A DNA stretch of 64,000 nt from Rhodanobacter sp. FW104-R8 (GTDB lineage: Bacteria; Pseudomonadota; Gammaproteobacteria; Xanthomonadales; Rhodanobacteraceae). The notes beneath the pieces were generated by a model, which saw only the letters and a program-made list of their open reading frames with translations, was not told where the DNA came from and ran no database searches. Shown in pieces: positions 588 to 39,982 of this stretch. The translations under genes and the position numbers were made by a program. Within the stretch, counting starts at the first letter, position 1. Each line of letters opens with the position of its first letter. The stretch spans positions 1-64,000 of the forward strand of contig NZ_LVJR01000011.1 in NCBI RefSeq assembly GCF_001617365.1, written 5' to 3'.

Positions 588-2435
588 TCAATGCTTCCCC
601 GGAGTGTCGAAATTGAACGGCCCCGGGGTCTTTATGCCGAACGATTTCTGGGCCGCCTCCAGAACCTCCGTGCTGCATTCGACGGCGCCGGGTTCGTCGT
701 GCGCCGGAACACCGGGCTGGCGTTCGCGCACGACCCGCGTGCGCTCCAGCACGATGGCCGCACGGCGCATCAGCTCGTACGCCTGTTCGCGTTGCCTGCC
801 GAAAGACTGGCGTTCGAACTTCGTGCGCTCCGCCGGGTCGGCCGGCGCCAACGGGTCGGGCGTGCCGGTCTTGCCGAGGAACTCATCCACGGCCCCGTGC
901 TCCATGGCTGGCCCCTTCGGCTCGGGCTCCTGCTTGCCCTGTTCGGGCGGCAGTTCGCTTTCGCCGCTTTGCGCCGCGCCCGACAAGTCGCAGCCGGCGC
1001 ACACCTTCGGGTCCGCCAGCCAATCGTGTGCCGCCTGCGCCCGCTCGACGGCCAGCGCCACGTTGCCCTCGAACTGCGGCGCGTGTTCGGTGCCGCGCGG
1101 CCCCTCGGGCGAGGTATAGCCCTTGATGGAGGTGACCCGGTAACCCTGTTCGTTCAACGCCTGGATGTCGGTCGGCAGCCGGAAATCCTTGCGCACCTCG
1201 TGCCTGGCGTGCCGGAAGAACACGTAGCGGGTCTGGACATCCGTCTGTTTCTGCTCCGGCACTTCCGGTACCGCCGGCACGTGGTTGATCTTCTCGCAGT
1301 TGAAGGTCAGCTTCTGCTTGCCTTTCTTGTGGCAGTCGACGTCCTTGGATGCCGCACCGCCACCGATGTCGATGGTGAACATGCACGACCCCGCCCGCGG
1401 GTCGCAATTCACGCCGCTCTTCACAGTCACGTCCTTGGTCTGCACCTCCACCGACCCACCGGCGCCGGCAAGGCCCTTCTCGTCCAGCTTGACCGACGGT
1501 ACGAGCGACACCGTGAAGCTCGATCCCTGGATGAAGGTGATCTTCAGCTCGGGATTGATGGCAACGCCCTTCAGCGCATCGGAGCCCGCCACCATGTTGG
1601 CGACCACCGAGCCGAGCGCCTGCGGAAGGTCCACGCCCGGCTGCAGGTTCACCTGGATGTTGCCCTTGCACAGGGAGATGTCCAGCCAGATTTCCTTGAG
1701 ACTGGCGCCGGGCGTGACCGAGCCGTGGAAGCCAGGCACGTTCGGCCCGTCGGTGGCCGTCATCGTCACCCGGTAGTCGGAGCCGTCCGGGCAATGCACC
1801 TTGCGCACGTCCGGGCTCTCCCCTGCGCTGGCGGCGCAGCCGCGCATCTGTCGGCGCATCAAACCGCCACCGCCGGGCGAAACTGAGACCCGCTCGCCCC
1901 GCATCACCGCATCGGCGGCGCGGTCGGCGGCGATTTCAGAAGCGTCGTCAGGCCGGCCGATCGCCAGCGATGCATGCAGGCCGCCGGCGCCGGGATCCTG
2001 CAGCGTGTGCGCCAGTTCGTGGGCGAGCAGGCGGCGGCCCGCCGGCGTGCCTGGCGCGTACTGGTGGGCCTCGAACACGACATGGCTGCCGACGGCGTAG
2101 GCCAGCGCGCCCACCGCGCGCGCTGATTCGGCGGCGCGGCCATCGTCGTGCACGCGCACACGGCTGAAGTCGCTGCCGAAGCGCGATCCCATCCAGCCCT
2201 GGGTGGCGAGGTCGAGCGGCCGGCCGGGGGAGGCGATCACGTCGTGCACGAGCGGGGGAGCGAGCATGGACGGGCTTCCACCGGCTCCGCTGCGCTGCAG
2301 TCGCTTGCTCGCGCAATCCCGGCACTCGCCGCCGTTCGGCGTATGCGTGCCGCAGGCGCATTTGCGGCGCAGGCTCGTCGCCGAGAGGGTTGCATTCGGC
2401 GGCTGCATGCGGACGAGGGGGCTATTCGTGCTCAT
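588..2435 (-). CDS. DUF4157 (eCIS core) protein with HExxH and OmpA-like C-terminal part
   Basis: Probable eCIS-associated cargo or assembly factor of 615 aa. Near the N-terminus is a Cys cluster, KCACG-x7-GGEC-x2-C (residues 25-41), that typically precedes DUF4157. DUF4157 itself follows at about 80-165, with the signature GSRFGSDFSRVRVH and a zincin-type motif HELAH at 139-143. A Gly/Val-rich middle region follows. Around residue 430-500 there is a stretch resembling an OmpA-type peptidoglycan-binding domain (GYTSPEGP, then ALAVERAQAAHDWL). The ATG at 2435 overlaps the end of the upstream gene by 14 bp; the open frame extends further upstream but with non-coding character. DUF4157 is known to be enriched in eCIS loci; whether this HExxH is active or structural cannot be told from sequence. 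Confidence 0.85.
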   Translation of the reverse strand: MSTNSPLVRMQPPNATLSATSLRRKCACGTHTPNGGECRDCASKRLQRSGAGGSPSMLAPPLVHDVIASPGRPLDLATQGWMGSRFGSDFSRVRVHDDGRAAESARAVGALAYAVGSHVVFEAHQYAPGTPAGRRLLAHELAHTLQDPGAGGLHASLAIGRPDDASEIAADRAADAVMRGERVSVSPGGGGLMRRQMRGCAASAGESPDVRKVHCPDGSDYRVTMTATDGPNVPGFHGSVTPGASLKEIWLDISLCKGNIQVNLQPGVDLPQALGSVVANMVAGSDALKGVAINPELKITFIQGSSFTVSLVPSVKLDEKGLAGAGGSVEVQTKDVTVKSGVNCDPRAGSCMFTIDIGGGAASKDVDCHKKGKQKLTFNCEKINHVPAVPEVPEQKQTDVQTRYVFFRHARHEVRKDFRLPTDIQALNEQGYRVTSIKGYTSPEGPRGTEHAPQFEGNVALAVERAQAAHDWLADPKVCAGCDLSGAAQSGESELPPEQGKQEPEPKGPAMEHGAVDEFLGKTGTPDPLAPADPAERTKFERQSFGRQREQAYELMRRAAIVLERTRVVRERQPGVPAHDEPGAVECSTEVLEAAQKSFGIKTPGPFNFDTPGKH

Positions 2436-2982
2436 GGTGCCCTCTCCCCATATCCACCCGCTCGAAAAAAAGCACCCGCCGGTTGGCATCCTGACGCTCG
2501 ATGGCGAACACCATCGACGGATCAGGACCGAGCAAATCGACCAGTCCCTGCAGCGCGCTGCAGTTTGCACGTATCGACACCGTGGCCGTGTACAGCGCTG
2601 CGGCGGGATCGCCTTTCAACAGTGGCGGCACCAGATCGGCCATCTCCGGCGCATTGCCGCGCAGAAACTCGACATAAGCCTGCGCCGTCTGCAGGCGCGG
2701 CCCCCGAAACGCTTCGCCCGACAGCGGCGCGCGCCAGATGTCCTGACGCGGATGCAATACGCACCGGCCGTCTATCGCGGTCCACGCGTACTCGGGCACG
2801 ACCGCGACAAGGGAATCCAATAACGCTTCCGGCGTTGTGTACGACGACGCCTGCCAGTCATGGGGCGCGGCTCCGTTTTCGATGAGGCACAACGCCACGT
2901 GGTGTTGCCCGCGCAGATACGCGGCGGCCTGCCTTGGGGTGAAGGCGGACGGGCCATCGGATCGAGGTGGGGGCGTGTTCAT
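2422..2982 (-). CDS. eCIS-locus hypothetical protein (186 aa)
   Basis: I do not recognise this family. The protein is soluble, 186 aa, without a signal peptide or membrane segment. It lies between the two DUF4157-type genes, 9 bp after the first and overlapping the start of the second by 14 bp, so translation is probably coupled. Features are an acidic C-terminal half with several Trp/Tyr residues and a histidine-rich tail (RGHHEHE). Placement between two cargo-like genes suggests a chaperone or partner for one of them; this is inference from context only. Confidence 0.75.
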   Translation of the reverse strand: MNTPPPRSDGPSAFTPRQAAAYLRGQHHVALCLIENGAAPHDWQASSYTTPEALLDSLVAVVPEYAWTAIDGRCVLHPRQDIWRAPLSGEAFRGPRLQTAQAYVEFLRGNAPEMADLVPPLLKGDPAAALYTATVSIRANCSALQGLVDLLGPDPSMVFAIERQDANRRVLFFERVDMGRGHHEHE

Positions 2983-3909: not shown

Positions 3910-4195
3910 GCCGCAATGCTCCCCCGTGGTGCATGGTGGTGTTGAGGCCGAGGCTCTGCCGCACGGCCGAAGCGACGCGGGCGCCAAACGGCTCGTGCAG
4001 CCGCACGGCCGCTGGCAACGTCATCGGCGGCAGCGCGGCTACCGTGCCGAGGCTATGCAGCGTGTCGATGGCGCCGGCTTGTGCCAGCTGTTGCCCCAGT
4101 TCGCGCTCGAGCGTCGCGCGCACATCGGTGGCGCGTTCGCCACCGAGCAGCGCCGCGTCGATCACCAGCCGTTCGATGTGCAGCTCGATGCTCAC
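3902..4195 (-). CDS. Small eCIS-associated protein (97 aa)
   Basis: A 97-aa soluble protein starting MSIELHIERLVIDAALL. The start codon is GTG at 4195, overlapping the stop of the ATPase gene as GTGA; no better start is available, and the tight overlap supports it. It ends inside the start of the next gene. The alternating LHIERLVID opening is similar to small linker proteins seen next to the ATPase in other eCIS loci, as far as I recall, but I cannot assign a function. It has no Cys and no membrane segment. Confidence 0.7.
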   Translation of the reverse strand: MSIELHIERLVIDAALLGGERATDVRATLERELGQQLAQAGAIDTLHSLGTVAALPPMTLPAAVRLHEPFGARVASAVRQSLGLNTTMHHGGALRHG

Positions 4196-6366
4196 GAGTG
4201 GCCTCCGGCGCTTGCCAGCCAGCGGAAATCCGCTTCGTTGACCGGCTTGTCGAGCTTGCGGTACTCGCCGCGCACGGCATCGAGCAGTAACGGCATGCCG
4301 ATTTGCACGCCAGCCTGGGCGGCCATGAAGGCGGCGTTGAGCGCGATGCCCTGGATGCTGCCGCCGGTGAGCGCGAAGCGCGCCAGCCGCTCCAGGTCCA
4401 GCGCGCCTACCGCGGCCTGCGGGGGAAACACCGAGGCCCAGATCGCGCGGCGCTCGGCCACGCCGGGGAACGGGAAGTTGATGACGAAGCGCAGCCGGCG
4501 CAGGAAGGCGCCGTCCAGCGCGCCCTTCATGTTGGTGGCCAGGATCGCCACCCCGCGGAACGATTCCAGCCGCTGCAGCAGGTAGTTCACCTCGATATTG
4601 GCGTAGCGGTCGTGGCTGTCCTTCACTTCGCTGCGCTTGCCGAACAGCGCGTCGGCCTCGTCGAAGAACAGGATCGCGCCGCCGCCCTCGGCCGCGTCGA
4701 ACAGCTTGCGCAGGTTCTTTTCCGTCTCGCCGATGTACTTGCTGACCACCGCCGACAGGTCGATGCGGTACAGCGACAGGCCCAACTCGCGCGCCAGCAC
4801 TTCGGCCGCCATGGTCTTGCCGGTGCCGCTCTCGCCGGTGAACAGCGCGCTGATCGACAGGCCGCGGTTCATGCGCGCGCGGAAGCCCCAGTCGTCGTAG
4901 ACGGTGCTGCGCTGGGCGACCTGGTCGGCGATCTGGCGCAGCAGGGCCTTTTCGCTGTCGGGAAGCTTCAGGTCATCCCACCCCGCCTTCGGCTCGATGC
5001 GCTGGGCGAGCTGGTCCAGTGCCGGTCGCGTATGCGCCAGCGCACCCTGCCACAGCGTCTGCGCCAGCGCTTCGGGCTTGTCCGCGACCGCCGCCAGCGC
5101 GACATGCGCGATCTGCTCGATGCGGTTGAGGTTGAAATCGAAGTGGCCGGCCAGTTGCTGCGGCTGGGCGCCCGCGGCGGCGCCGAGCAGGCGCTGCCAC
5201 AGCGTGCGCTGCTCGACCGCGGTGGGCTTGGCCACATCGATGCTGAGCGCGCGCGTCGTGGCGCCTGCCCACGGCTCACGCGCGTCGACGAAGCTGAGCC
5301 CGCCGGCGCGTGCGAGGAAGCGCTTGACCAGCGCCGCGGCAGCGTCGCCGCGCTCGACCTCGGCCGCATCGAGGTACAGCGCCAGCGGCAGCAGCTGGCT
5401 TTCGCGCTGCCACAACCGCAGCAGGGTTTCCTGCTCGCCCACCGCGGCGGGCAGCAGCTCGGCCGACAGCCGGTACGCCTGCGCGCCGAATGCGGCGGCA
5501 ATCGTTTGCGCCACGGCCTGCTTGCTCACACCGTCGCTGCCGAGCAATTGCACCGCCGGCATCGGCTCGCCCGGCGGCACGTGGCGCAGGTTGTCCAGCA
5601 GCTGCTCGGCGAGTGCCTGCTGCGAGGGCGGCAGCGTCGCCGGCGGCAACGCGGTGAGCAGCGGCGTGAGGCGGTCGTCGAGGTAGTTCAGGCCCTTGAC
5701 GAAGTTGACCACGCGCTCGTCCGCGCCCAGTGCCGCGCCGATCAGCGGCTGCGCGCCGGGTTGGTGGATCTCCAGCAGGCGCCAGTAGCGCAGCGGGCGC
5801 TCGGGCGACAGCGCGTCCCAGCTCGGCGCATCCAGCACCGCGAACGCCAGCGCGTAGGTGGGATACGGCTTGCCCGGATCGTGCTGGGCCTGCGCGCAGA
5901 GCGCGGGGAAGCGGGTGTCCAGTTCCATGCCGATGCACAGCAGCAGCAGGTCGCGCTCGAACGCAGTGAGGCCGAGCCGGCTGGCGAGAATTGCCAGCGC
6001 GGGTGTGTTCCCGTGGCCGGCCGTGGGGTCGACCGGCGGGCCCGTGTCGGCCGCGGCGCTGCCTTCCGGCGCCACGGCGACGATCGGCCGCGGCGCGGGC
6101 GGCTCGATGGCGTCCAGTTCCGCCGCGCTCAGCGGTGCATGCCCGTGCGTGCCGCCGAACATCCGCGCGAGCCAGGAAGGTTTCGGCGCGGCCGGCGCGT
6201 TCACCGCCGGCGCCGCTTCCATCAGGGCGGTGGCCAGCGGTGCAGGCGACGGCGCGGCGGCTTCGTCGTGGCGCTGCGCCCCGCGCTGCAGGCGTGCGCG
6301 CAGCTCGGCCAGCGCCGCGGCGAGGTAACGATCGTTCGCTTCCAGCCATTGCGCGTAGTCGTTCAT
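4192..6366 (-). CDS. eCIS AAA+ ATPase
   Basis: A 724-aa ATPase of the type conserved in contractile injection system loci (Pvc15/Afp15-like role). The C-terminal third is a classic AAA+ module: Walker A GESGTGKT at residues 511-518, Walker B with FFDEADALFG at about 563-572, then an arginine-rich sensor region (FLRRLRFVINFPFPG). The N-terminal 450 residues are a family-specific Ala/Leu-rich extension with a degenerate second nucleotide-binding look. The true start is the ATG at 6366 (MNDYAQWLEAND), which overlaps the preceding stop by 4 bp (ATGA); the frame stays open for another 1.8 kb upstream only because of GC bias. In related systems this ATPase is needed for particle assembly or cargo loading, in the cytoplasm. 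Confidence 0.9.
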   Translation of the reverse strand: MNDYAQWLEANDRYLAAALAELRARLQRGAQRHDEAAAPSPAPLATALMEAAPAVNAPAAPKPSWLARMFGGTHGHAPLSAAELDAIEPPAPRPIVAVAPEGSAAADTGPPVDPTAGHGNTPALAILASRLGLTAFERDLLLLCIGMELDTRFPALCAQAQHDPGKPYPTYALAFAVLDAPSWDALSPERPLRYWRLLEIHQPGAQPLIGAALGADERVVNFVKGLNYLDDRLTPLLTALPPATLPPSQQALAEQLLDNLRHVPPGEPMPAVQLLGSDGVSKQAVAQTIAAAFGAQAYRLSAELLPAAVGEQETLLRLWQRESQLLPLALYLDAAEVERGDAAAALVKRFLARAGGLSFVDAREPWAGATTRALSIDVAKPTAVEQRTLWQRLLGAAAGAQPQQLAGHFDFNLNRIEQIAHVALAAVADKPEALAQTLWQGALAHTRPALDQLAQRIEPKAGWDDLKLPDSEKALLRQIADQVAQRSTVYDDWGFRARMNRGLSISALFTGESGTGKTMAAEVLARELGLSLYRIDLSAVVSKYIGETEKNLRKLFDAAEGGGAILFFDEADALFGKRSEVKDSHDRYANIEVNYLLQRLESFRGVAILATNMKGALDGAFLRRLRFVINFPFPGVAERRAIWASVFPPQAAVGALDLERLARFALTGGSIQGIALNAAFMAAQAGVQIGMPLLLDAVRGEYRKLDKPVNEADFRWLASAGGHS

Positions 6367-7604
6367 GTCACCGCGACCTGCTGGTTGGCGGCGAACGCGG
6401 GCACGCTGCCGCTGAAGTCGACCGGGATGCTGTCGGCGCCATCGACGCGCAGGCGCACCACATACGTACCCGCCGCCACGCCCGGCACGTGGAATACCAG
6501 TGCGCTCGGCTGATGCTGATCGGCCGGATTGCCGATGCTCTGCGGCACCAGCAGGCGATCGCCGAACAACAGGAACACCCGCTGCCCGTGGCGGATGCGC
6601 GGCATGCAGGTGAGGTTCAAGGTGAGGTCGCCGGCCGGCGCGGCGAGCGGACTCAGCGTGATGACCGGCGCCAGCGCCAGCGGCAGTTCGTTGCTGAGCA
6701 GCGGCGGCAGTCCCGGTGGCTGCACCTGCAGGGCCACGGTATAGATGCCCGGTGCCCAGCGCGACGCGGCATCGGCATCCTCGGCCGTGTTCGCCAGGTG
6801 CACGCGCAAGCTGGCGTCGTCGCCCGCCAGCGGTGCGATCTCGACCGGCGCGTCGAGGCGCAGGCTGCTGAAGCGGGCCAATGCGTGATTGGTGGTGAGC
6901 TGGCGCCCGCCCAGCACGAGATCCTCGCCCAGCCGCACGGCTGCCTGCGCGCGCGGATAGCTCAACGTGTCCAGTGCCGCCGCGGCAGACGCCGTGGCGA
7001 TCACGCCGCGATCCTGCGGGCCACGCCGCAGCACCGGCAACGGCGCGCGCACCGCGGCCTGGCTGTCGATCAGCACCACCGCCGCCTCGTAGACGGCCGA
7101 CGTGCGGTAGTTGGTCTGGAAGGCCGTCCACAATTTGGACAACTCGTCGACGCCCTGCGGCAGCGGCGTGATGCGCACGCGCTCGAACTGGCCGGCGAGG
7201 TCGTTGCCCGGCAGCGCGTTGCGGATGTCGTTGCCGTCGAGCACGCCGCGGTCGTGCAGCGTGCTCATCGCCGCGGCCAGCACGCGATGGCTGATGGCGT
7301 CGTTGTCGTTCTCGCCGCGGCCCCACGCGGTAATCACGTAGTGCAGGTTCAGCGCCAGCGACGGCGGCGCACTCTCGCCGGCATGCACCTGGCCGGGCAT
7401 GTCGAGGTTGCGCCAGGCGGCGTTCGCCACCACCTGGTACAGGAACAGGTTGAGCTGCGCCTTGCTGACGCCCTTGCGCGCCACGTCCGGCGGCTGCAGG
7501 GTCACCTCCAAGTCGCTCAGCTCGGCATCCAGCACGGGCATCTGCGCCAGCAGCAGGTTGCGCAGCGTGCGCGTGGTCGCGGCGATGGCCAGCACGTTGC
7601 TCAT
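6363..7604 (-). CDS. DUF4255 / Pvc16-type tail terminator protein
   Basis: A 413-aa protein with an N-terminal DUF4255 (Pvc16_N) domain, residues about 5-195: MSNVLAIAATTRTLRNLLL, LFLYQVVANAAWRN, and LALNLHYVITAWG are typical. The C-terminal part contains Ig-like beta segments (LVFHVPGVAAGTYVVRLRVDG). In PVC and Afp particles this protein caps the distal end of sheath and tube. The gene overlaps both neighbours by 4 bp (ATGA), placing it firmly in the structural operon between the proline-rich small protein and the ATPase. Confidence 0.88.
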   Translation of the reverse strand: MSNVLAIAATTRTLRNLLLAQMPVLDAELSDLEVTLQPPDVARKGVSKAQLNLFLYQVVANAAWRNLDMPGQVHAGESAPPSLALNLHYVITAWGRGENDNDAISHRVLAAAMSTLHDRGVLDGNDIRNALPGNDLAGQFERVRITPLPQGVDELSKLWTAFQTNYRTSAVYEAAVVLIDSQAAVRAPLPVLRRGPQDRGVIATASAAAALDTLSYPRAQAAVRLGEDLVLGGRQLTTNHALARFSSLRLDAPVEIAPLAGDDASLRVHLANTAEDADAASRWAPGIYTVALQVQPPGLPPLLSNELPLALAPVITLSPLAAPAGDLTLNLTCMPRIRHGQRVFLLFGDRLLVPQSIGNPADQHQPSALVFHVPGVAAGTYVVRLRVDGADSIPVDFSGSVPAFAANQQVAVT

Positions 7605-8365
7605 GGCGAGGCCTTGCCGCCGCGCTGGCGCAGGTAGTCGTCGAGGCTGCCTGGCTGCGGGCCGTCGCGGCGTCGCGGCGGCGCGCTGGCCGGCGGCGCA
7701 GCACGTACTTCGAGGCGGCCGATGCTGACGTGCACGGCCGGCTCGCTCGCCGCTGCGCCGCCATGGCCGGCTTGCGCCGCGCCGGCGCGCGGTGCGGCGG
7801 CGCCATCGCGCCGCGCGGATGCGGTCGCGGCACGCGGCGCGGCAAACACCGGCGCGTGCGGAGGCAGCAGGACGCCGCTTGGCGGCGACGGCGGCGCCGT
7901 CTCGAGCCGGGCCGGGGCGATGCGCGTCCGCCGCGGCGGCACCGGCGGCGGCGCGACTTCTGCCGGATGCGCCGAGACGGACCGCGGCGTCCCGACGCGT
8001 TCGGTGAGGGGCGACGAAGCCTGCGTCGCGGCGCCCGGCATCGGCGACGGCGGCGATATTGTGCTACGCGGTGCATCCGCGACGGCGGGTGCCGGCGCGG
8101 ATGCCGCGAGGCGCTCGTGCGGCGCGCTGCGCGAGGCATCCGGCTCGATCCGCGAAGCGGCATTCGGCAAGCGCGCCGGCGCTTCGGGCGGTGCCGCTTC
8201 GGTCGCAGGCGGCCCCTCGCGACGACGTGACGGCATCTCGCCAGCGTCGGTGGGCGGCATGAGCGGCGCGCGCCGCAGCGGCTCGAACAGCGACGGCAGC
8301 CGCGGCGCCAGCGCCGTCTCGCTGCCGATCGCCCTTGCCGCCAGCCGGTCGAGGAAGTCGCTCAT
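7601..8365 (-). CDS. Proline/alanine-rich eCIS linker protein
   Basis: A 254-aa low-complexity protein. A short conserved head (MSDFLDRLAARAIG, followed by a Pro-rich PSLFEPL segment) is joined by about 170 residues of Pro/Ala/Arg-rich disordered sequence to a conserved tail containing VHVSIGRLEVRA and a final SLDDYLRQRGG. Head and tail motifs of this kind recur in small proteins encoded between baseplate and Pvc16-type genes in eCIS and phage-tail-like clusters. It overlaps both neighbours by 4 bp. The function is unknown; a flexible assembly scaffold is plausible. Confidence 0.78.
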   Translation of the reverse strand: MSDFLDRLAARAIGSETALAPRLPSLFEPLRRAPLMPPTDAGEMPSRRREGPPATEAAPPEAPARLPNAASRIEPDASRSAPHERLAASAPAPAVADAPRSTISPPSPMPGAATQASSPLTERVGTPRSVSAHPAEVAPPPVPPRRTRIAPARLETAPPSPPSGVLLPPHAPVFAAPRAATASARRDGAAAPRAGAAQAGHGGAAASEPAVHVSIGRLEVRAAPPASAPPRRRDGPQPGSLDDYLRQRGGKASP

Positions 8366-9099
8366 GGCGCGCACAGCTCCAGGTAGGCCTGGCGGCGGCG
8401 CGGGCTCAGCGCGAGGATGTCGGCCTCGCGCCAGTGGTAGGCGTATGCCAGCGTGTCCACGTCGCGCAGCATGTGCAGCGCCCACGCGTGCAGTTCCTGC
8501 CACAGGAAGCGCGCGACATCGAACGCCGGCTGCCAGCCGTGACCGCAGTCCGGGCAGCGGAAGGCCAGTTGCAGGTCGGCCTGCGGATCGGCCCGGGCCA
8601 TCGCCTGCGCGATCTCCATCTGCACGTCGTACGGTAGCTCGCGCACATCGCGCGATCCGGTGCCTCCCTCCGTGGCCAGCACGCAGCGTTCGAGCAGCAG
8701 GCCGCGCGCCGCCTGGGCATCGCCGCACTGCTCCAGCGCCAGCAGGTCGCTGCTGTCGGGCAGGCGGAACCGCACGCGGATACCACCGTGCGAGGCATGT
8801 TCCAGCACGGGCGCTGCGGCATCCGGCTCCGCCAGCCGCAGGTCGTCGCAACGAAACGTCGCCTCGACTGCGGCCGCGCATGCCGGGCAGCTCGCCACCG
8901 CGGCGATCTCGGCGCCGAACAGGCGTTCGCGCAGCTCGAGCAGCAGCGCGTCGCGCCGGCCCAGCGGCAGCGCCGCCCGCGCTTCGGCGGAGTATTCGTC
9001 GCAGCTGCAGCCGAGCAGCAGCAGCCCGCGTGCCGCGGCGGACGGGTCGCCCCCGCGTTCCCAGACCTGCAGCAGCTGCGCGGGCGTGGGCGTGCGCAT
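8362..9099 (-). CDS. Zinc-ribbon, baseplate-associated eCIS protein
   Basis: A 245-aa soluble protein with two CxxC pairs (C71/C74 in CPACAAAV and C182/C185 in CPDCGHGW) that can form one zinc ribbon. This resembles the T4-type baseplate or tail-assembly proteins found beside tube genes in eCIS loci. The C-terminus ends with ADILALSPRRRQAYLEL, a pattern common in that family. The gene starts 5 bp after the tube stop and overlaps the next gene by 4 bp. An assembly role near the baseplate is likely from context; I cannot say whether it is part of the mature particle. Confidence 0.78.
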   Translation of the reverse strand: MRTPTPAQLLQVWERGGDPSAAARGLLLLGCSCDEYSAEARAALPLGRRDALLLELRERLFGAEIAAVASCPACAAAVEATFRCDDLRLAEPDAAAPVLEHASHGGIRVRFRLPDSSDLLALEQCGDAQAARGLLLERCVLATEGGTGSRDVRELPYDVQMEIAQAMARADPQADLQLAFRCPDCGHGWQPAFDVARFLWQELHAWALHMLRDVDTLAYAYHWREADILALSPRRRQAYLELCAP

Positions 9100-9104
9100 G
9101 GCGC

Positions 9105-9632
9105 TCAGACGGCGGGCACGGTGAAGCTCGGCTCGGCCGGCTCCGACACGCCGACGTCGCGCTCCCAGCCCTCGTTCTCGAGCTTCAGGTGCTGGATCGC
9201 CACCGCATTCGCGTTCGCGTCCAGGTCGGGCATCGCCTGGTACTCCGACACCCAGCAGCGGTACAGCTTGTAGGCGAGTGCGAGCTGGCCGGCCTCGTTG
9301 TAGACCTCCAGGATCAGATCCTTGCGGAAGTCCTTCAGCGAGACCTCCGCGCCGAGCCCGGCGCCGAAGTTCCACACCTTGTTCGCCCACTTCTCGAACT
9401 CGGTGTCGTGGGTGACGCCGCGCTCGATGGTGACCGCCTCGTACTCGGTGCGCCCGGGCGACTTGCGCGTGCTGCTCGGGTCGCCGCCCTCGCGGTGCTT
9501 GACCACCTCGGTGGTGCGCTTCAGCCCGGAGACCTTGCTGACGCCGGCCACGTAGCGGCCGTCCCACTTGACCCGGAACTTGAAGTTCTTGTACGGATCG
9601 AAACGCTGCGCATTGACGCTGAACTGAGCCAT
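9105..9632 (-). CDS. eCIS inner tube protein
   Basis: A 175-aa protein of the phage T4 gp19/Hcp-like tube family (Pvc1/Afp1 type). It has the expected length and the typical opening FDPYKNFKFRVKWDGRYVAGVSKVSGLKR, followed by REGGDPSSTRKSPGRTEYEAVTIERG and the C-terminal IQHLKLENEGWERD. It polymerises inside the sheath to form the channel that carries cargo. Only one tube paralogue is present here, whereas PVC/Afp loci have several, so others may lie left of the window. It is 10 bp downstream of the sheath gene. Confidence 0.93.
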   Translation of the reverse strand: MAQFSVNAQRFDPYKNFKFRVKWDGRYVAGVSKVSGLKRTTEVVKHREGGDPSSTRKSPGRTEYEAVTIERGVTHDTEFEKWANKVWNFGAGLGAEVSLKDFRKDLILEVYNEAGQLALAYKLYRCWVSEYQAMPDLDANANAVAIQHLKLENEGWERDVGVSEPAEPSFTVPAV

Positions 9633-9642
9633 GGCGTTTTCC

Positions 9643-11253
9643 TCAGGACTGGATCTGGCCGGCCATCTGCTGCAGCTGGATGACCACGAACTCGGCGGGC
9701 TTGAGCGGCGCGAAGCCGACCACGATGTTGACGATGCCGAGGTTGATGTCGTTCTGCGTGGTGGTTTCCTTGTCGCACTTCACGAAGTAGGCATCGTTCG
9801 GCGTCTTGCCCTGGAACGCGCCCTGGCGGAACAGGTTCTGCATGAAGGCGCCCACGTTGAGGCGGATCTGCGACCACAGCGGCTCGTCGTTCGGCTCGAA
9901 CACCACCCACTGGGTGCCGCGGAACAGGCTTTCCTCGATGTACAGCGCGAGCCGGCGCACCGGCACGTACTTGTATTCGTCGGCGAGCAGGTCGGCGCCG
10001 CGCAGCGTGCGCGAACCCCACAGCACCGGACCGACCAGCGGGAAGCTGCGCAGGCAGTTCACGCCGAGCGGATTGAGCATGCCGTTCTCGGCGTCGTTGA
10101 GCGTGGCGGCAAGCCCCTGCACGCCGTTCAGCGCCGCGTCGATGCCGGCCGGCGCCTTCCACACGCCGCGCTGCGTATCGGTGCGCGCCATCACGCCGGC
10201 GACGATGCCGCAGGGCACGAAGCTGTCGAGCTGGCCTTGCCGCACCGGGTCGGATTCGATCACCCGCGGGAAATACAGCGCGGCGTTGCGTGCGGCATCG
10301 CCGTTGAGCCCGAGCGCGGTCAGCGCCGCGTTGCTGGACTGGGTGATCGCGCCGGCACTGCTCCATTCGGCGGGCGCGTCGACGATCAGCAGCGCGCGGC
10401 GATCCACGCAGAACGCCAGTGCGGTCTGGTACACGGTGACCGCGGTGTTACCGCCGCGCAGGTCGGGCGGAATGCACAGCAGGTTGAACAGGTCGGCCTT
10501 CTTCAGCGCATAAAGGCCGGTCTTCGCGTCCGGGCTGCCCAGGTACGCCGCGTCGTCCAGTACCGCGCTATCGGCGGCCTGGTCGGCAGGTGCGACGCCG
10601 GTGGAGGATTTGTCCTGCTCCCACACGGTCTTGCCGGGATCGGGATCGAGATGCGCCGCGGGCACGGTCGTGGCCGGCAGCGTCAGCGACGCCGCCACGC
10701 GCGCCAGCGACGAACCCGCCTTCAGCACGCGGTCGGCGCGGCGCGGGCTTTCCTTGACGGTGAGGTTGAGGAAACTTTCCTGCGCGCCGCTGGCCACGTC
10801 GCGTACGGTCAGGTTGAACAGGTCGGTGGTCGCCAGCCCGAAACGCGCCGCGATGTCGGCGGATACGCCGTAGTCGACGCGCGCGCGCAGCTGGTTGCCC
10901 CAGCTGCCGGCCGACGCGGCCTCGAGCGGCAGGTTCGCGATCTTGATCGCCGCCTTGGCCGGCTTGCCGCCGTTGGCCTTGTACAGCCGCACGATCACGG
11001 CCTGGGCGCCGCCGTTGAGGTAGAAGTCGCGCACCGCGTAACCCATCGGGTAGGTCGGATCGAGCTTGCCGAAATTGCGCTCGAAGTCGCCGTAGCTGTT
11101 GATGGTCACCGGGCTTTCCGCATCGGCGTCGGTCGGTCCGCGCGCGGCGCGGCCGACAAAGGCGGCGATCGACGTGGCCACTCCGGTGATGGTGCGCACG
11201 CCGCTGGGAATTTCCTCGATGTAGACGCCCGGATAGGTGAGCGCAGATGGCAT
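9643..11253 (-). CDS. eCIS contractile sheath protein
   Basis: A 536-aa phage tail sheath family protein (Pvc2-4/Afp2-4 type). The N-terminus YPGVYIEEIPSGVRTITGVATSIAAFVG is diagnostic. The C-terminal domain has the typical NCLRSFPLVGPVLWGSRTL and YKYVPVRRLALYIEESLFRGTQWVVFEPNDEPLW blocks and ends with QLQQMAGQIQS. The length is normal for the long sheath type. It contracts around the inner tube. It is the second gene of the sigma-54-promoted operon that begins with the small protein at 11568. Confidence 0.95.
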   Translation of the reverse strand: MPSALTYPGVYIEEIPSGVRTITGVATSIAAFVGRAARGPTDADAESPVTINSYGDFERNFGKLDPTYPMGYAVRDFYLNGGAQAVIVRLYKANGGKPAKAAIKIANLPLEAASAGSWGNQLRARVDYGVSADIAARFGLATTDLFNLTVRDVASGAQESFLNLTVKESPRRADRVLKAGSSLARVAASLTLPATTVPAAHLDPDPGKTVWEQDKSSTGVAPADQAADSAVLDDAAYLGSPDAKTGLYALKKADLFNLLCIPPDLRGGNTAVTVYQTALAFCVDRRALLIVDAPAEWSSAGAITQSSNAALTALGLNGDAARNAALYFPRVIESDPVRQGQLDSFVPCGIVAGVMARTDTQRGVWKAPAGIDAALNGVQGLAATLNDAENGMLNPLGVNCLRSFPLVGPVLWGSRTLRGADLLADEYKYVPVRRLALYIEESLFRGTQWVVFEPNDEPLWSQIRLNVGAFMQNLFRQGAFQGKTPNDAYFVKCDKETTTQNDINLGIVNIVVGFAPLKPAEFVVIQLQQMAGQIQS

Positions 11254-11289
11254 GGGATCGGTCCTCCGTCGTGAAAATTCGTGTCGCAG

Positions 11290-11568
11290 TCAATGCGGCT
11301 GCGGCGGTTTCGTGTGCTTGTTCAGCGCATACAGCACTTCGCCATCGGGCAACTCGTCGCGATGCAGCAACCCCTCGGCCACCAGCCGGTCCAGCACGTG
11401 CTCGATGCGCCAACAGCCGCTTTCGTAACGCTGCCGCGGCAGCCACCAGTTGACGATGCCGCGGAGCGTGTCGGCCGCCTGCGGGTGGCGATGCAGATAT
11501 GCGAGCACCGAACGCTCGATCTCGCCTTCGTCTTCCACTGCCGCCCTGGTGCACGGTTGCTTGGTCAT
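11290..11568 (-). CDS. Small winged-helix-like protein heading the eCIS structural operon
   Basis: A 92-aa protein starting MTKQPCTRAAVEDEGEIERSVLAYLHRHPQAADTLRGIVNWWL. The helical pattern followed by GCWRIEHVLDRLVAEGLLHRDELPDGEVLYALN looks like a winged-helix fold (recognition helix about 55-67, wing about 72-82). The ATG at 11568 has a strong ribosome site (GAGAGG) seven bases upstream; longer starts cross the promoter. It lies 36 bp before the sheath gene and just 30 bp below the sigma-54 promoter. It could be an autoregulator or simply a conserved eCIS helper; the sequence does not decide. Confidence 0.75.
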   Translation of the reverse strand: MTKQPCTRAAVEDEGEIERSVLAYLHRHPQAADTLRGIVNWWLPRQRYESGCWRIEHVLDRLVAEGLLHRDELPDGEVLYALNKHTKPPQPH

Positions 11569-11598
11569 GACACCTCTCTTGCATACGTGAGGGTTCAG

Positions 11599-11613
11599 GC
11601 AACGAACATGCCA
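11599..11613 (-). promoter_or_regulatory. Sigma-54 promoter of the eCIS structural operon
   Basis: On the minus strand this reads TGGCATG-TTCG-TTGC, a full match to the -24/-12 pattern with GG and GC separated by the required 10 bases. It lies about 30 bp upstream of the ATG at 11568, so the leader is short. An 18-bp palindrome is located 61 bp further upstream, with the same geometry as the promoter at 14228. Confidence 0.8.
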
Positions 11614-11674
11614 GCCGCCGGAGACGATGGAATGAACAGCGGCCGCGGTTTGGCCCGGAACATGGCGGAATCTC

Positions 11675-11692
11675 CGGGTCAAAACCGACCCG
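11675..11692. promoter_or_regulatory. Palindromic activator site, copy 2
   Basis: CGGGTCA-AAAC-CGACCCG, an 18-bp imperfect palindrome (6 perfect base pairs per arm). It matches the site at 14304-14321 in length, half-site and distance to the sigma-54 promoter (61 bp gap). It is the probable upstream activating sequence for the enhancer-binding protein encoded at 14365-15354. Confidence 0.7.
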
Positions 11693-11820
11693 ATTTGCAG
11701 GCGCAGCGGGAGCAACTGCACCCGGCCCGGAAGGCACGCACGCCGGACGCCGCGGACCATGCCAGCCTCCTCCCGACGATTGCCTGCGACCTCGCTCCGC
11801 ACTGCCCACCCTTCCCGCTC

Positions 11821-11844
11821 CGGGGCCTGCCGGGGCAGGCCCCG
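11821..11844 (-). terminator. Strong hairpin after the 736-aa gene
   Basis: Perfect 11-bp GC arms (CGGGGCCTGCC and its complement) with a 2-base gap, starting 6 bp after the TAA of the upstream gene. There is no T-run on the minus strand, so it may stabilise the 3' end or act as a partial terminator rather than a full intrinsic terminator. Confidence 0.5.
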
Positions 11845-11850
11845 GTCCGT

Positions 11851-14061
11851 TTACGGGTGCGGGACGGCTCGCTGCTCGGCCAAGGCAAATGCAATCAGCC
11901 TCGAGGCATCGAGCCCCAGACGCTCGTACCCGTTGGTCGCCTTGCCGTACACGTACAGGCTGGCGGCGAAGGCGGCGTTGACGCAGCCGCCGACCAGTTC
12001 CGCGGGGATGAAATCGCGTTGGTAATACCCGGCGGCCTTGATGTACGGCGCGCTGGTCGTCGCCGCACTGGCCGCGGCCACTTCGACATAGGGAGCCAGC
12101 GTCGAAGCCGTGGGCATGCCGTTCGACCCGCGCGTGATGCCGAAGCCGAACACGGCACGCTGGTTGGGATGGGCCGCCAGGTACCGTACATGCACCAGGT
12201 CGCCCGCCTGATAACGCAGGAAGCCGCAATCGTCGCTCGCCGCCACGCCGCCGATGCTCGGTTGCGGCAGGTCGGCACTCACACCGTTGTTGTCCACGTG
12301 CACGCGCAGGACATAGGCGCCACCCGCTTCTTCGGCCGCCGTGGACAGGCGGGTGGTGGTGCCGTCGGCATTGCGCGCCAGGAAGCGGAAGCTGCCGGCA
12401 CCGGGCATGACCTGGTTGCCTGCAGGATCGAATACCTCGATCTTGATCTCGAAATCGCCGGCGTCGTCGGTGGCGTTGTCGGCCGACAGCGGCGGGGCCG
12501 CGAGCAGGGTGTTCCAGCTCGCCCCCACTTCGCTCAGGTTGCCGCTGGTCCATTCGCGCGCGACGACGGTGGCCGGGTCGGTGCCGCGCGCCGGCGGGGT
12601 TTGCGGCTTGAATTCGAACAGGCCGCTGTGCGCACCGAGCGTGGCCGGGCCCACCGGATAGCTTTCATAGGTAGGTAGCCGGTCGGAATACTCCATCCGG
12701 TAGCCACGCGCCAATGGCGTATTGATGGGCGTCCAGGTCGGGTCGTCCGCACCGGCGTTCGGCGTGACGTTCCAGCGACGGTAGGCATAGCGGTAGTACT
12801 TGATGCCGCTGGAGGGGATGAAATACGAGTCGTCGTGGATGAAGTTCAGCGTGCCGCCGAACGGTGCGTCGTGGAGCCAGCCCAGCGAGGTGCCGGTCTG
12901 GTAGTCGATCAGGCCGTCGGGCCGTACCCAGCCAGCGGGCGCGGGCGGCGCACCGGGCGGAATGCCCCAGATCGGCGCATTCGCAATGGCGTAGGGCAGC
13001 ACGAACAGCGTGACGCCCGGCGGAATGTCGTAAGGCGGCTCCTCGCAAGCCACGGCGCGCGGCAGGTTGAGCACGACTTCGGTGCCGCAGGCATAGCTCC
13101 AGTACGTGCCGCAGCCGATGCCGGGGCGGTACACGGTGGTCCATGCACCGCCCTGGAATTGCTCGACCCAGAAATACAGGTCGGGATGATCCGCGCAGTC
13201 GTGGAAGATGAGCGCACCGAACCGCCCATCGTCATCGGCGTCCACCGTGGTCAGGCAGTCCACCTGGAAGTAGGCCCAGAGATACACCAGGTCGCACAGA
13301 TGGACGGCGATGAAACTGGAAAGCCCGACGAGCTGGGCGCGGGCGTGGGCCACCGAATGGGAAGTGGCCAGCGCGGAGGCCATCATGGCCATCGGATCCA
13401 CGGCCGAATCCGCCTGCACACGATGCTGCACCACCGGCGCCGCGTTCAGCGCCGCGGCGGGCGCCACACGACTCGCGGCGCGTGCCTGCATCAGCCCGTC
13501 GAGCGGCCCGGGCCCCGGGCCGGGCGGAAACGGCCGGGGCACCACCCGCAGCCTGTCCAGCAAATCGCCGCGCAAGCGCAGGATGTCGTGATCGGGCAGT
13601 TTCCCGATCACCAGTGGTATGCGGTCGACCTCGCAGATATGCACACGGGCGTGGCAAACCGGCAGTTCCCTGGTGCTGCCGTCCGGCATGGTGAAACGCT
13701 TCACCAGCCGCCCCCGCACGAAACACAGGCACCATTTCGGGAAGATGACGCTGGGGATACTCACATCCAGCACGGGCTCTTTCACCAGCAGCCGCGTCGA
13801 CTTGGCATAGCCACCCATGCGCCTGAGGGAGGCCGCGGTGGGCATCGTCTGGCCTTCCCCCGGACGCGGCCCGAGTATCACCTCCAGCATGCGCCCATCG
13901 AGTTCGGCGGGCACTTCCACCGTGGCGGCGCCATTTTCCACGACCCCGCTGCCCAGCAGCCTGCCCTGTCCGGTGAAGGCGTAGGCCTGCAACGGCGAGG
14001 TCTTGCCCTGGTCGCTGAACTTGACCTTGATTTGCAGTCGAACGGATTGCTCGGAATTCAT
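11851..14061 (-). CDS. Large unknown eCIS-locus protein under its own sigma-54 promoter
   Basis: A 736-aa protein that I do not recognise. It starts MNSEQSVRLQIKVKF at an ATG preceded by a perfect AGGAGG. Residues 1-100 look like a beta-sandwich of the carboxypeptidase-regulatory type (LQAYAFTGQGRLLGSG, AATVEVPAELDGRMLEVILGP). A Pro-rich linker follows, then a Trp/Tyr-rich central region (YWSYACGTEVVLNLP, WVRPDGLIDYQ) and a C-terminal Ig-like part. There is no signal peptide and no membrane segment. The gene is the first product of the sigma-54 circuit and is transcribed separately from the sheath operon. Candidates are a cargo protein, a tail fibre or an accessory shell protein; the Cys residues and beta-rich character favour an exported or particle-bound protein. 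Confidence 0.8.
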   Translation of the reverse strand: MNSEQSVRLQIKVKFSDQGKTSPLQAYAFTGQGRLLGSGVVENGAATVEVPAELDGRMLEVILGPRPGEGQTMPTAASLRRMGGYAKSTRLLVKEPVLDVSIPSVIFPKWCLCFVRGRLVKRFTMPDGSTRELPVCHARVHICEVDRIPLVIGKLPDHDILRLRGDLLDRLRVVPRPFPPGPGPGPLDGLMQARAASRVAPAAALNAAPVVQHRVQADSAVDPMAMMASALATSHSVAHARAQLVGLSSFIAVHLCDLVYLWAYFQVDCLTTVDADDDGRFGALIFHDCADHPDLYFWVEQFQGGAWTTVYRPGIGCGTYWSYACGTEVVLNLPRAVACEEPPYDIPPGVTLFVLPYAIANAPIWGIPPGAPPAPAGWVRPDGLIDYQTGTSLGWLHDAPFGGTLNFIHDDSYFIPSSGIKYYRYAYRRWNVTPNAGADDPTWTPINTPLARGYRMEYSDRLPTYESYPVGPATLGAHSGLFEFKPQTPPARGTDPATVVAREWTSGNLSEVGASWNTLLAAPPLSADNATDDAGDFEIKIEVFDPAGNQVMPGAGSFRFLARNADGTTTRLSTAAEEAGGAYVLRVHVDNNGVSADLPQPSIGGVAASDDCGFLRYQAGDLVHVRYLAAHPNQRAVFGFGITRGSNGMPTASTLAPYVEVAAASAATTSAPYIKAAGYYQRDFIPAELVGGCVNAAFAASLYVYGKATNGYERLGLDASRLIAFALAEQRAVPHP

Positions 14062-14227
14062 GACGGGCCTCCTGGATGACTGGTTCGGGTGGCCTGGCGA
14101 TCGACGCACCGTCGATTTCCAGGACATCGGTACCGACTCTGGGGCAGCCGATCGACAAGGCGCTGGCAACCGGCCTTCCGAACCCCAGTGGCGGGACGCT
14201 GTTCCGCACACGTGCGGGGGGATCGAG

Positions 14228-14242
14228 GCAACATGCATGCCA
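14228..14242 (-). promoter_or_regulatory. Sigma-54 promoter of the 736-aa gene
   Basis: On the minus strand TGGCATG-CATG-TTGC, matching the -24/-12 consensus with correct 10-base spacing between GG and GC. The predicted start is near 14217, giving a leader of about 155 bases before the ATG at 14061. It lies between the activator gene and its presumed target. Confidence 0.8.
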
Positions 14243-14303
14243 TCGCGAAAAGGCGATCGAATGGGCCGCCACAAGGACCCTTGGCAGCCTGGCTCGAAAT
14301 CAC

Positions 14304-14321
14304 CGGGTCAGCGATGACCCG
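14304..14321. promoter_or_regulatory. Palindromic activator site, copy 1
   Basis: CGGGTCA-GCGA-TGACCCG, a perfect 7-bp inverted repeat with a 4-base spacer. It is 61 bp upstream of the -24 element, the same as in copy 2. It lies 43 bp past the stop of the activator gene and has no T-run, so a terminator is less likely than a binding site. Confidence 0.7.
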
Positions 14322-14364
14322 TTTCGTCGGCGCGGTGGGAGGGTTTGTACCCGGAGCCGTGGAA

Positions 14365-15354
14365 TCAGTGTGGCCGGAACTGCTTGGTCTCGATGCCGTG
14401 CTTCAGCAGCAGCTTGCCGAGCTGGCGGCGCTCGGTGCCGGACAGGCGGGCGGCGGCACTGATGTTGCCGCAGGCCTGCTGCATCAGCCGGGTGAGATAG
14501 TCGTGCTCGAACTTGCGGATGGCATGCAGCTTGGCCGCGCTGAAACCGAGATCCGGCTCGCTGGCGCGGCGCCGCGCCAGCGACTCGGTGCCGGCGAACG
14601 CCGGCTCCGCCGCCACCAGCTCGGCGAAGCCGATGATGCCGCCTTCGGTGCCCAGGTAGGCGCGCAGCGCGACATTCTCCAGCTCGCGCACGTTGCCAGG
14701 CCACGCATACGCCAGCAGCGCCTGCAAGGCGTCTTCGCCCCACCGCCTGGCCGGCCCCCGCAGCCGCGCGGCGATGGCATCGACGAAATGCCCGGCGAGC
14801 AGGGCCACGTCGTCATCGCGCTCACGCAACGGCGGCAGCCGCAGATACAAGGCATTGAGCCGGTAATGCAGGTCGCGGCGGAAGCGGCCGGCCGCCACCT
14901 GGCGCTCCAGGCTGGCGTTGGTGGCGGCGATGATGCGCGCGTCCGACACCCGCGCCGCGCCGCCGCCCACCGGGCGGTACTCGTTGTCCTGCAGGAAGCG
15001 CAGCAGGGTCACCTGGCCCTTGTCCGAGAGCGTGTCGACCTCGTCGAGGAACAGCGTGCCGCCGCGCGCATGGTCGACCAGCCCGGGCTGGGCGGCCTTG
15101 GCGTCGGTGAAGGCGCCGCGGCCGTGCCCGAACAGCTCGTTCTCGATCAGGCTGTCGGGAATCGCGCCGCAGTTGACCGGAACGAACGGGTGGTCGCGGC
15201 GCGCACTGGCGTAGTGGATCTCCCGTGCCGCCAGTTCCTTGCCGGTACCGGTCTCACCCTCGATAAGCACCTGCACGTCGCAGCCGGCGTAGCGCTGCAA
15301 TTGCACGCGCACCGCCTGGACCGCCTTGGATTGGCCGAGCATGACCGGCATCAT
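14365..15354 (-). CDS. Sigma-54-dependent activator without receiver domain (PspF-like layout)
   Basis: A 329-aa enhancer-binding protein. The AAA+ domain fills residues about 5-235: Walker A GETGTGKE (33-40), ENELFGHGRGAFTDA (71-85), Walker B GGTLFLDEV (98-106) and the arginine-finger region RRDLHYRLN. A Fis-type helix-turn-helix is at the C-terminus (NISAAARLSGTERRQLGKLLLKHGI). No N-terminal receiver, GAF or PAS domain is present, so control must come from a partner protein or from expression level. The sigma-54 contacting loop reads GAFTDA instead of the usual GAFTGA. Its position directly upstream of two sigma-54 promoters with matching palindromes indicates it is the local eCIS activator. 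Confidence 0.9.
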   Translation of the reverse strand: MMPVMLGQSKAVQAVRVQLQRYAGCDVQVLIEGETGTGKELAAREIHYASARRDHPFVPVNCGAIPDSLIENELFGHGRGAFTDAKAAQPGLVDHARGGTLFLDEVDTLSDKGQVTLLRFLQDNEYRPVGGGAARVSDARIIAATNASLERQVAAGRFRRDLHYRLNALYLRLPPLRERDDDVALLAGHFVDAIAARLRGPARRWGEDALQALLAYAWPGNVRELENVALRAYLGTEGGIIGFAELVAAEPAFAGTESLARRRASEPDLGFSAAKLHAIRKFEHDYLTRLMQQACGNISAAARLSGTERRQLGKLLLKHGIETKQFRPH

Positions 15355-15861
15355 CCGTCCCCGAAGCCACCAGCAAGAACCACCGCACGCCAGCCATCGG
15401 CGCGCTGCGAAATCCCCCTGGTGCCCATCGCGATCCGGCCCTCGCGCACTGGATCATCGGCGACGATGGAGTATGCGCAGTTTCAGCGCTGCAGTCCAAG
15501 TCTGTTCTTGCTGTCGTCCCCGGCCGCTGTCGATGTAGTACCAGAACGATCACCGGCGTAGTACAGCGCCTTGTTTGCCCCCAGGAACGGTTGCCGGTCA
15601 CAGAACCGGCACTTCGTCGCGCCGCCCCCACGATGGCTGATGGCGCGGCAAGATGGCACAGATCGCCTCGCGATCGCGCCTGGACACGGGCGCGTTCGCG
15701 GCCGCTCGCGTATCCTAGGCAACCGTCGCCGCGTTCCTCCCGGCGCTCGCAAGGCACCGCGGCATGGCCGCTCTCCCCGCGAGTCTCCATCTCCGGCCTG
15801 CCGGATGGCCCGGCGTGCGACTCCCCGGCACCGATACTGCAACAACGCGAGACGACCGACC
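15355..15861. other. Divergent intergenic region, no gene seen
   Basis: About 500 bp between the eCIS activator (minus) and the reductase gene (plus). The open frames here are short and lack coding character. I saw no sigma-54 element, terminator or RNA gene. Promoters for both flanking genes should be here but none stands out. Confidence 0.6.
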
Positions 15862-39541: not shown

Positions 39542-39631
39542 CGTGGATCGAACTCCCGATGCTACCCAATCCATCCCGCGATCACCCATGACCAAAGCCA
39601 TGGGTCGGCGCCGGCCTCCGCGGCCGCGACC

Positions 39632-39790: not shown

Positions 39791-39982
39791 GATGTGTCTC
39801 CGCATGGGTGGATTCCCTGTGCGGTATAGAAGTGCAATCGCCGTGCCAACCCGCTGGAGTGCCCGCGAAGCCTTGTCTCGCCTGCATCGGGCGGCTTCGC
39901 GCGCAAGCTCGGCGCGTTGTCCGCGGACAGCCGCCGCGCCGCGTCCGGACACGCGGACAGCCGCGTGCGCCGCGCCGCCAGC

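Follow-up and report, generated by a model that had tools for sequence, protein, structure and literature searches.

A gene cluster in a 64-kb stretch (hereafter, the window) of the 3.72-Mb genome of Rhodanobacter sp. FW104-R8 very probably carries its own sigma-54 control circuit, in which a cluster-encoded activator would act through tandem operators and DNA looping to fire a variable gene and the particle genes jointly. As known here from its genes, the cluster is an extracellular contractile injection system (eCIS), which bears out a first-pass annotation of the same DNA: profile matches to a sheath, a gp19-type tube, a Pvc16_N terminator, an AAA ATPase and an eCIS_core protein all fall within it. 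On the minus strand, from 15354 to 588, the order is activator, promoter P1, a gene for a 736-aa protein, promoter P2, a gene for a 92-aa protein (hereafter, the small protein), sheath, tube, baseplate, Pvc16_N, AAA ATPase and eCIS_core (Table 1). The evidence throughout is sequence comparison, and related loci are not independent of each other.

Promoters and predicted operators

In the usual numbering of sigma-54 promoters, the T of TGG lies at −26, and the consensus has GG at −25/−24 and GC at −13/−12. Both dinucleotides are present exactly so, within TGGCAYG-N4-TTGC, at P1 and P2, each of which matches TGGCATG-N4-TTGC without mismatch; these are the only two occurrences in the window, at the places given by the first-pass annotation. 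With two mismatches allowed, the motif was found 25 times compared to 24.7 expected, i.e. at the chance level, so that only exact matches carry weight. The genome encodes an rpoN-type gene (PF04552, 2.2e-68), and a consensus scan of positions 11200-15700 listed no sigma-70 promoter.

Upstream of each promoter lies a palindrome, CGGGTC-N6-GACCCG, whose near edge is 62 positions from the promoter T (61 bases between). Both 18-bp palindromes and their equal distance had been described correctly, although the T had been labelled −24 rather than −26. The combined pattern CGGGTC-N6-GACCCG-N61-TGGCA[CT]G-N4-TTGC occurs twice in the window and in none of 100 dinucleotide shuffles; chance geometry was dropped as an explanation given the shuffles and the conservation in relatives described below.

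A set of 28 enhancer-promoter modules was aligned on the palindrome. Of these, 22 come from the genus (17 loci, the window among them), 5 from other members of the family and 1 from Variovorax, the last six having been picked by the strict pattern itself. Two loci stayed outside the set, one with no palindrome at up to 2 mismatches (L054) and one with a truncated activator and a sigma-54 motif without operator (L065). TGGCA and TTGC are kept in 28 of 28 modules, partly owing to how the modules were chosen. Exactly 32 bp upstream, the profile contains a second conserved block, CGGGT-N8-(A/T)CCC (G at −31 in 28/28, G at −30 in 27/28 and C at −18 in 28/28), which resembles the palindrome in length and at its ends, less so in the centre, and is the weaker of the two. 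The model of a single palindrome per promoter was therefore replaced by one of two predicted operators; the second had been overlooked at each promoter in the first-pass annotation. A full distal GGGT-N8-ACCC site, 32-34 bp from the near one, is present in 11 of 29 family loci (L152, L154-L156, L158-L160, L162, L168, L170 and L171); among distant loci, a 33-bp spacing was found only in L111.

Table 1 Features of the eCIS locus in the window
Feature	Position	Strand	Remarks
Sigma-70-like promoter candidate of the activator	15470..15499	−	TTGGAC-N18-CATACT; weak, none listed by consensus scan
Activator, 329 aa	14365..15354	−	PF00158 4.8e-61, PF02954 1.6e-05
P1 distal operator (predicted)	14336..14353	−	CGGGTACAAACCCTCCCA; 32 bp upstream of proximal; 28-module profile
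P1 proximal operator (predicted)	14304..14321	−	CGGGTCATCGCTGACCCG; palindrome, both 7-base arms perfect
P1 sigma-54-type promoter	14228..14242	−	TGGCATGCATGTTGC; exact TGGCATG-N4-TTGC
Slot gene behind P1, 736 aa	11851..14061	−	without match
Hairpin just after slot gene, 11 bp, G+C-rich	11820..11845	−	no T run; fold of 11785-11860: −43.3 kcal/mol, z −2.25
P2 distal operator (predicted)	11707..11724	−	CGGGTGCAGTTGCTCCCG; 28-module profile
P2 proximal operator (predicted)	11675..11692	−	CGGGTCGGTTTTGACCCG; palindrome, one arm position mismatched
P2 sigma-54-type promoter	11599..11613	−	TGGCATGTTCGTTGC; exact TGGCATG-N4-TTGC
Small conserved protein, 92 aa, first gene behind P2	11290..11568	−	alignment of 21
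Sheath	9643..11253	−	PF17482, PF04984
Inner tube, gp19-type	9105..9632	−	PF06841 4.5e-46; TIGR02241
Open reading frame with T4 baseplate domain	8362..9567	−	PF12322; true start probably further in
Pvc16_N tail terminator	6363..7604	−	PF14065 1.3e-45
Open reading frame with winged-helix and AAA ATPase of eCIS	4192..8163	−	PF00004, PF22977; true start probably near 6360
eCIS_core protein	588..2570	−	PF13699 2.1e-27

A third TGGCAYG-N4-TTGC site, TGGCACGGCGATTGC, lies at 39834-39848 (−), about 230 bp upstream of a 756-aa open reading frame (37331-39601), with no CGGGTC-N6-GACCCG operator accompanying it.

Conservation of the modules

Within the genus (45 genomes), the palindrome-promoter pair was found in 13 genomes (16 matches) compared to 0 matches of the reversed pattern, which served as the control in the genus, family and class scans. 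All 16 matches sit between an activator orthologue and the small first eCIS gene, and the strict pattern had no second place in any of the 45 genomes. An activator orthologue (at least 64% identity) is encoded in 18 genomes, and that of a nineteenth, G406, is truncated; Pvc16_N is present in 15 of the 18 vs 2 of the 27 others (Fisher 2.6e-7). In the family (233 genomes), the pattern occurs in 18 genomes (21 matches, reversed control 0), 18 of which encode the small protein and 17 Pvc16_N; family-wide, the small protein is found in 59 genomes, Pvc16_N in 56 and both in 45. As a test of its putative sigma-54 circuit, the first-pass annotation had proposed to ask whether related eCIS loci conserve the promoter and the palindrome; the test was passed in genus and family alike, and that interpretation is supported.

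A scan of one genome per species returned 15 stretches with palindrome and promoter, 14 of them at eCIS-type loci of this kind. These 14 comprise 13 Rhodanobacteraceae-type records, namely 9 from Rhodanobacter (named species include R. glycinis, R. lindaniclasticus and R. thiooxydans), 2 from Dyella, 1 from Luteibacter and 1 from an unclassified metagenome bin matching congener G410, together with 1 from Variovorax; the fifteenth stretch is from Nitratireductor. The small protein and/or the activator are encoded in all but the Nitratireductor stretch, and a sheath in 12, plus a 13th via a longer fetched stretch (L059); the unclassified bin offers just a short contig, on which only the activator and the small protein are encoded. 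The Nitratireductor match was rejected as an eCIS locus, there being no match to the window's eCIS proteins other than the activator; read by eye, the neighbouring reading frames resemble an ABC-transporter region with a receiver-type activator.

In the class sample (369 genomes), 13 genomes encode the small protein, and a looser operator-promoter pattern gave 11 matches in 9 genomes, 9 of these at small-protein loci of 8 genomes. The looser pattern was present in 8 of the 13 small-protein genomes vs 1 of the 356 others (Fisher p = 1.4e-12), or 7 of 12 vs 1 of 356 with the FW104-R8 genome left out. Elsewhere in the FW104-R8 genome, GGGT-N8-ACCC and a sigma-54-type promoter precede a gene judged by eye to be fimV-like from its N-terminus (L136, G000:C3:51159-51250); this site may be a chance match or a further target.

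We also analyzed loci picked by the small protein rather than by DNA, with the FW104-R8 genome left out: 12 from class genomes and 29 from the family, the latter being those returned among the 59 small-protein genomes. Of these 29, 22 were already known via the activator or the pattern and 7 were new (G388, G293, G291, G244, G482, G214 and G297). A sigma-54 motif with at most 2 mismatches lies within 330 bp upstream in 26 of the 29, the others being G273, with its promoter before an inserted gene, G240 and G257; among class loci, such a motif was found in 11 of 12, and the twelfth has 3 mismatches. A near operator is present in 36 of the 41 loci and in 17 of the 19 new ones (strict pattern, except that one mismatch was allowed in L168 and L171 and GGG-N8-CCC in L106 and L111; mismatched family sites were examined only at gaps of 46-69). 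The gap from the inner edge of ACCC to the promoter is 58-65 in 31 loci, 51-53 in 3 and 39-40 in 2, with none between. The classes look to be spaced by roughly one helical turn, which is what a need for the activator to occupy one face of the DNA would predict; this grouping is based on the five loci that fall outside the main class, two from a single genus. In L106, L111 and L112, Pvc16 is directly behind the small gene, GGG-N8-CCC sites replace GGG-N10-CCC, and a helix-turn-helix (HTH) residue of the activator is changed.

The activator

The gene immediately upstream of P1 is, as the first-pass annotation had it, that of an activator: a sigma-54 AAA+ domain from residue 6, followed by a Fis-type HTH, with no space for an N-terminal regulatory domain (the open frame is 362 aa from stop to stop). 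Scores against the PspF equivalog (TIGR02974, 235.1 bits vs a cut-off of 443.55) and the NorR equivalog (NF003451, 286.6 bits vs a cut-off of 476) are below threshold. The sigma-54 contact loop reads GAFTDA instead of GAFTGA. GA[FY]TDA is present in 27 of 27 aligned activator rows and in 8 of the 9 best activator matches in more distant genomes, the exception being GAYTGA in G854, which may be a paralogue. The same change in NorR, G266D, escapes N-terminal repression and leaves the protein active, according to excerpts of one study (PMC2941729). Since it lacks an N-terminal domain and has GAFTDA in the contact loop, the activator probably needs only to be made in order to be active, in which case control would lie in its synthesis or in a separate partner, for which the small protein is a candidate.

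For its own synthesis, a weak sigma-70-like element (15470-15499) is conserved in most of 18 aligned upstream regions and degenerate in L053/L054 and others. No operator with up to 2 mismatches was found upstream of the activator gene, which makes autoregulation via such sites unlikely.

An activator-like gene was found in all 16 distant or divergent genomes checked (those of G740 and G854 may be paralogues), and in 7 of the 12 distant loci the homologue lies inside the fetched region. Six distant activators carry about 130 extra residues before the AAA+ domain; a receiver-type domain was considered and rejected, the three scanned having no Pfam family at E up to 10. Four activators from loci lacking GGGT-N8-ACCC (L118, L123, L124 and L180) have T, D, A or M at the HTH position where other orthologues have G; three of these loci have GGG-N8-CCC sites instead. 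At paralogue loci (L034-L045), the loop was read in nine, seven with GAFTGA and two with GAFTDA.

Genes behind the two promoters

Two target operons of the eCIS had been proposed; two promoters are indeed present, but P1 precedes a single gene, and the particle genes start behind P2. The 736-aa protein has no Pfam, NCBIfam or PDB match and no relative in the plasmid collection. Relatives at about 30-36% identity occur in another genus (L013-L015, from G214, G234 and G310), with no match to these eCIS genes or to the operator in the fetched 19-20 kb; the same three genomes carry Pvc16_N and the small protein elsewhere. The hairpin after the 736-aa gene is a possible end of the P1 unit; it was rejected as a classical terminator between the two units, having no T run and not being listed as a terminator by the scan. 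The best PDB match of the small protein is weak (E 0.0038, a Fur-family chain), with no Pfam family above the cut-off; by eye and from weak matches only, it appears winged-helix-like.

Two modules flank one gene in 5 loci (the window, G198, G301, G402 and G400), and one module lies directly before the small gene in 10 (G255, G374, G413, G386, G399, G407, G408, G140, G419 and G410). In the window, the flanked slot codes for the 736-aa protein; in the remaining four loci, it codes for a calpain-like one (L047, L055, L058 and L059; Peptidase_C2 at 2.6e-21 and 4.3e-20 for the two that were scanned, with the rest similar by eye). In G273, the slot is of another type, about 440 aa, with one promoter found. 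In G240 and G257 (L053 and L054), a single P1-type promoter is followed by genes of all three slot types one after another, judged by eye except for the 736-aa one, and then by the small gene. Neither genome encodes Pvc16_N anywhere, no sheath or tube turned up in the 20 kb examined, and the operator is degraded; the two thus appear to retain a circuit without a particle, i.e. activator, sigma-54 promoter, slot genes and small gene. Mean identities between modules (P1-P2 0.651, P1-single 0.697 and P2-single 0.679, calculated without a shuffle control) do not tell whether P2 is a copy of P1, and this idea was dropped.

Proposed mechanism and alternatives

Under the proposed mechanism, the activator would be made from its own, non-sigma-54 promoter. 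Its dimers would bind a strong and a weak GGGT-N8-ACCC operator (about −96 and −128, 32 bp apart) and assemble a ring there; through looping of the DNA and ATP hydrolysis, the complex of RNA polymerase and sigma-54 would then be opened at the promoter, which lies 61 bp downstream. P1 would drive the variable slot gene (736 aa here, a calpain-like protease in relatives), and P2 would yield one transcript covering the small protein, the sheath and the tube as well as further particle genes, so that particle and slot protein would be made together. A more far-reaching interpretation, which we regard as tentative and rather doubtful, is that of an old, self-contained eCIS ignition cassette, in which the activator is under no restraint, the operators are locked in helical phase and a small DNA-binding-like protein is its partner or brake; the cassette would recruit new cargo or surface genes behind a second enhancer-promoter copy, and parts of it would outlive the particle after loss of the structural genes.

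Loosely defined palindromes (7-4-7, allowing one mismatch) are not unusual within 150 bp of promoters of this type: 3 of 11 in the shuffles have one, and so has the window's third TGGCAYG-N4-TTGC promoter. The case for the predicted circuit rests on operator sequence and distance. Several observations weigh against a dedicated circuit. Pvc16_N is encoded without a close activator orthologue in G403 and G409, 11 of the 56 family genomes with Pvc16_N lack the small protein, and 14 of the 59 with the small protein lack Pvc16_N. Among the 12 distant loci, five have the activator about 5 kb away (G709), about 31 kb away (G854) or on another contig (G812, G740 and G012), and G854 has neither an operator nor the D in its loop. 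The 32-bp operator spacing is not universal, a second full site being 81-94 bp off in the distant loci L104, L105, L108, L110 and L113. In the class, the remaining two looser-pattern matches are in G739 and at a second place in the FW104-R8 genome, and the reversed control gave 1 match (G540). GAFTDA is not exclusive to these activators either, as it is found in L034, L035 and L181, and is thus a trait of the wider family.

Three other explanations were considered. A repressor or co-activator other than the linked activator might bind the operators, either the small winged-helix-like protein or a further factor, while another enhancer-binding protein of the cell opens the promoters: the gene of the small protein is linked to the sites no less tightly than that of the activator, and the FW104-R8 genome has five further activator matches at E 1e-40 or better. 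However, a pair of sites in tandem about 100 bp upstream, with gaps in helical steps, is in keeping with the general geometry of an enhancer-binding protein, and the HTH residue change in L118, L123, L124 and L180 parallels the absence of GGGT-N8-ACCC, which is suggestive, although these loci are few and related. In G240 and G257, moreover, the activator, P1-type promoter and slot genes are kept with the particle genes gone or not found, but there the operator is degraded and the small gene is kept too. On balance, we consider this explanation unlikely.

A wider surface regulon, with the eCIS as one of several targets, would account for the loose match before the fimV-like gene; given that the strict pattern has no second place in the 45 genus genomes, it appears more improbable still. 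Least probable by far is that the motifs and palindromes arose by chance or are mere remnants, with transcription of the cluster starting from other promoters. The chance-level frequency of the loose sigma-54 motif in the window is in line with this view, whereas conservation in the family, in Variovorax and in other families of the class, which exceeds both the shuffle and the reversed-pattern controls, and the lack of a sigma-70 consensus promoter in 11200-15700 argue against it. We thus favor the dedicated sigma-54 circuit.

Relation to known systems

Sigma-54 control is known for type VI secretion systems (T6SS); for eCIS, no report was found in the literature searched, as judged by titles and the starts of abstracts, with the 2019 eCIS survey and supplements not covered, so that priority is not certain. 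According to excerpts of a 2023 review, induction and regulation of eCIS clusters without known regulatory genes are unclear (PMC10598620). The locus described here supplies a candidate activator, operators, two promoters and expected transcript starts, predicted some 11 bases downstream of each TTGC (near 14217 and 11588), which makes control of the particle directly testable. If the circuit is real, supplying one 329-aa protein may switch on the particle genes for study. It occurs in a genus with named strains (e.g. R. glycinis, R. lindaniclasticus and R. thiooxydans), and its DNA signature finds such eCIS loci with few false matches (14 of 15 stretches).

NtrC acts at glnA from a tandem enhancer, with two dimer sites about three helical turns apart, about 100-140 bp upstream. 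The predicted operators resemble it in the pair of dimer sites and in spacing and distance; the operator sequence differs, and the sites are about one turn nearer the promoter. Regulators of the GerE/LuxR type share with the activator the linkage of a regulator gene to eCIS, whereas they are of another protein family and are not known to act as sigma-54 activators. Such regulators adjoin 25.8% of eCIS loci in the sections consulted of one survey, the main text of which does not contain the word 'sigma' (PMC8213781). Like PspF, as described in excerpts (PMC2941729), the activator consists of AAA+ and a Fis-type HTH only, with no N-terminal domain; unlike PspF, it scores far below the equivalog cut-off, and no psp family was found among the window proteins scanned.

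The closest likeness is to the T6SS, the operons of which need RpoN and a cluster-encoded enhancer-binding protein such as VasH, with auxiliary clusters co-activated, according to excerpts of one paper (PMC10482370). Among the window proteins scanned, there was no match to the TssJLM membrane complex of T6SS, no search aimed at TssJLM having been made. In both cases, a contractile injection apparatus would be under RpoN and an enhancer-binding protein encoded in its cluster; here, by contrast, the apparatus is an eCIS, the activator has no N-terminal domain, carries GAFTDA and would use an operator of its own, and in five loci the control region is duplicated around a slot gene.

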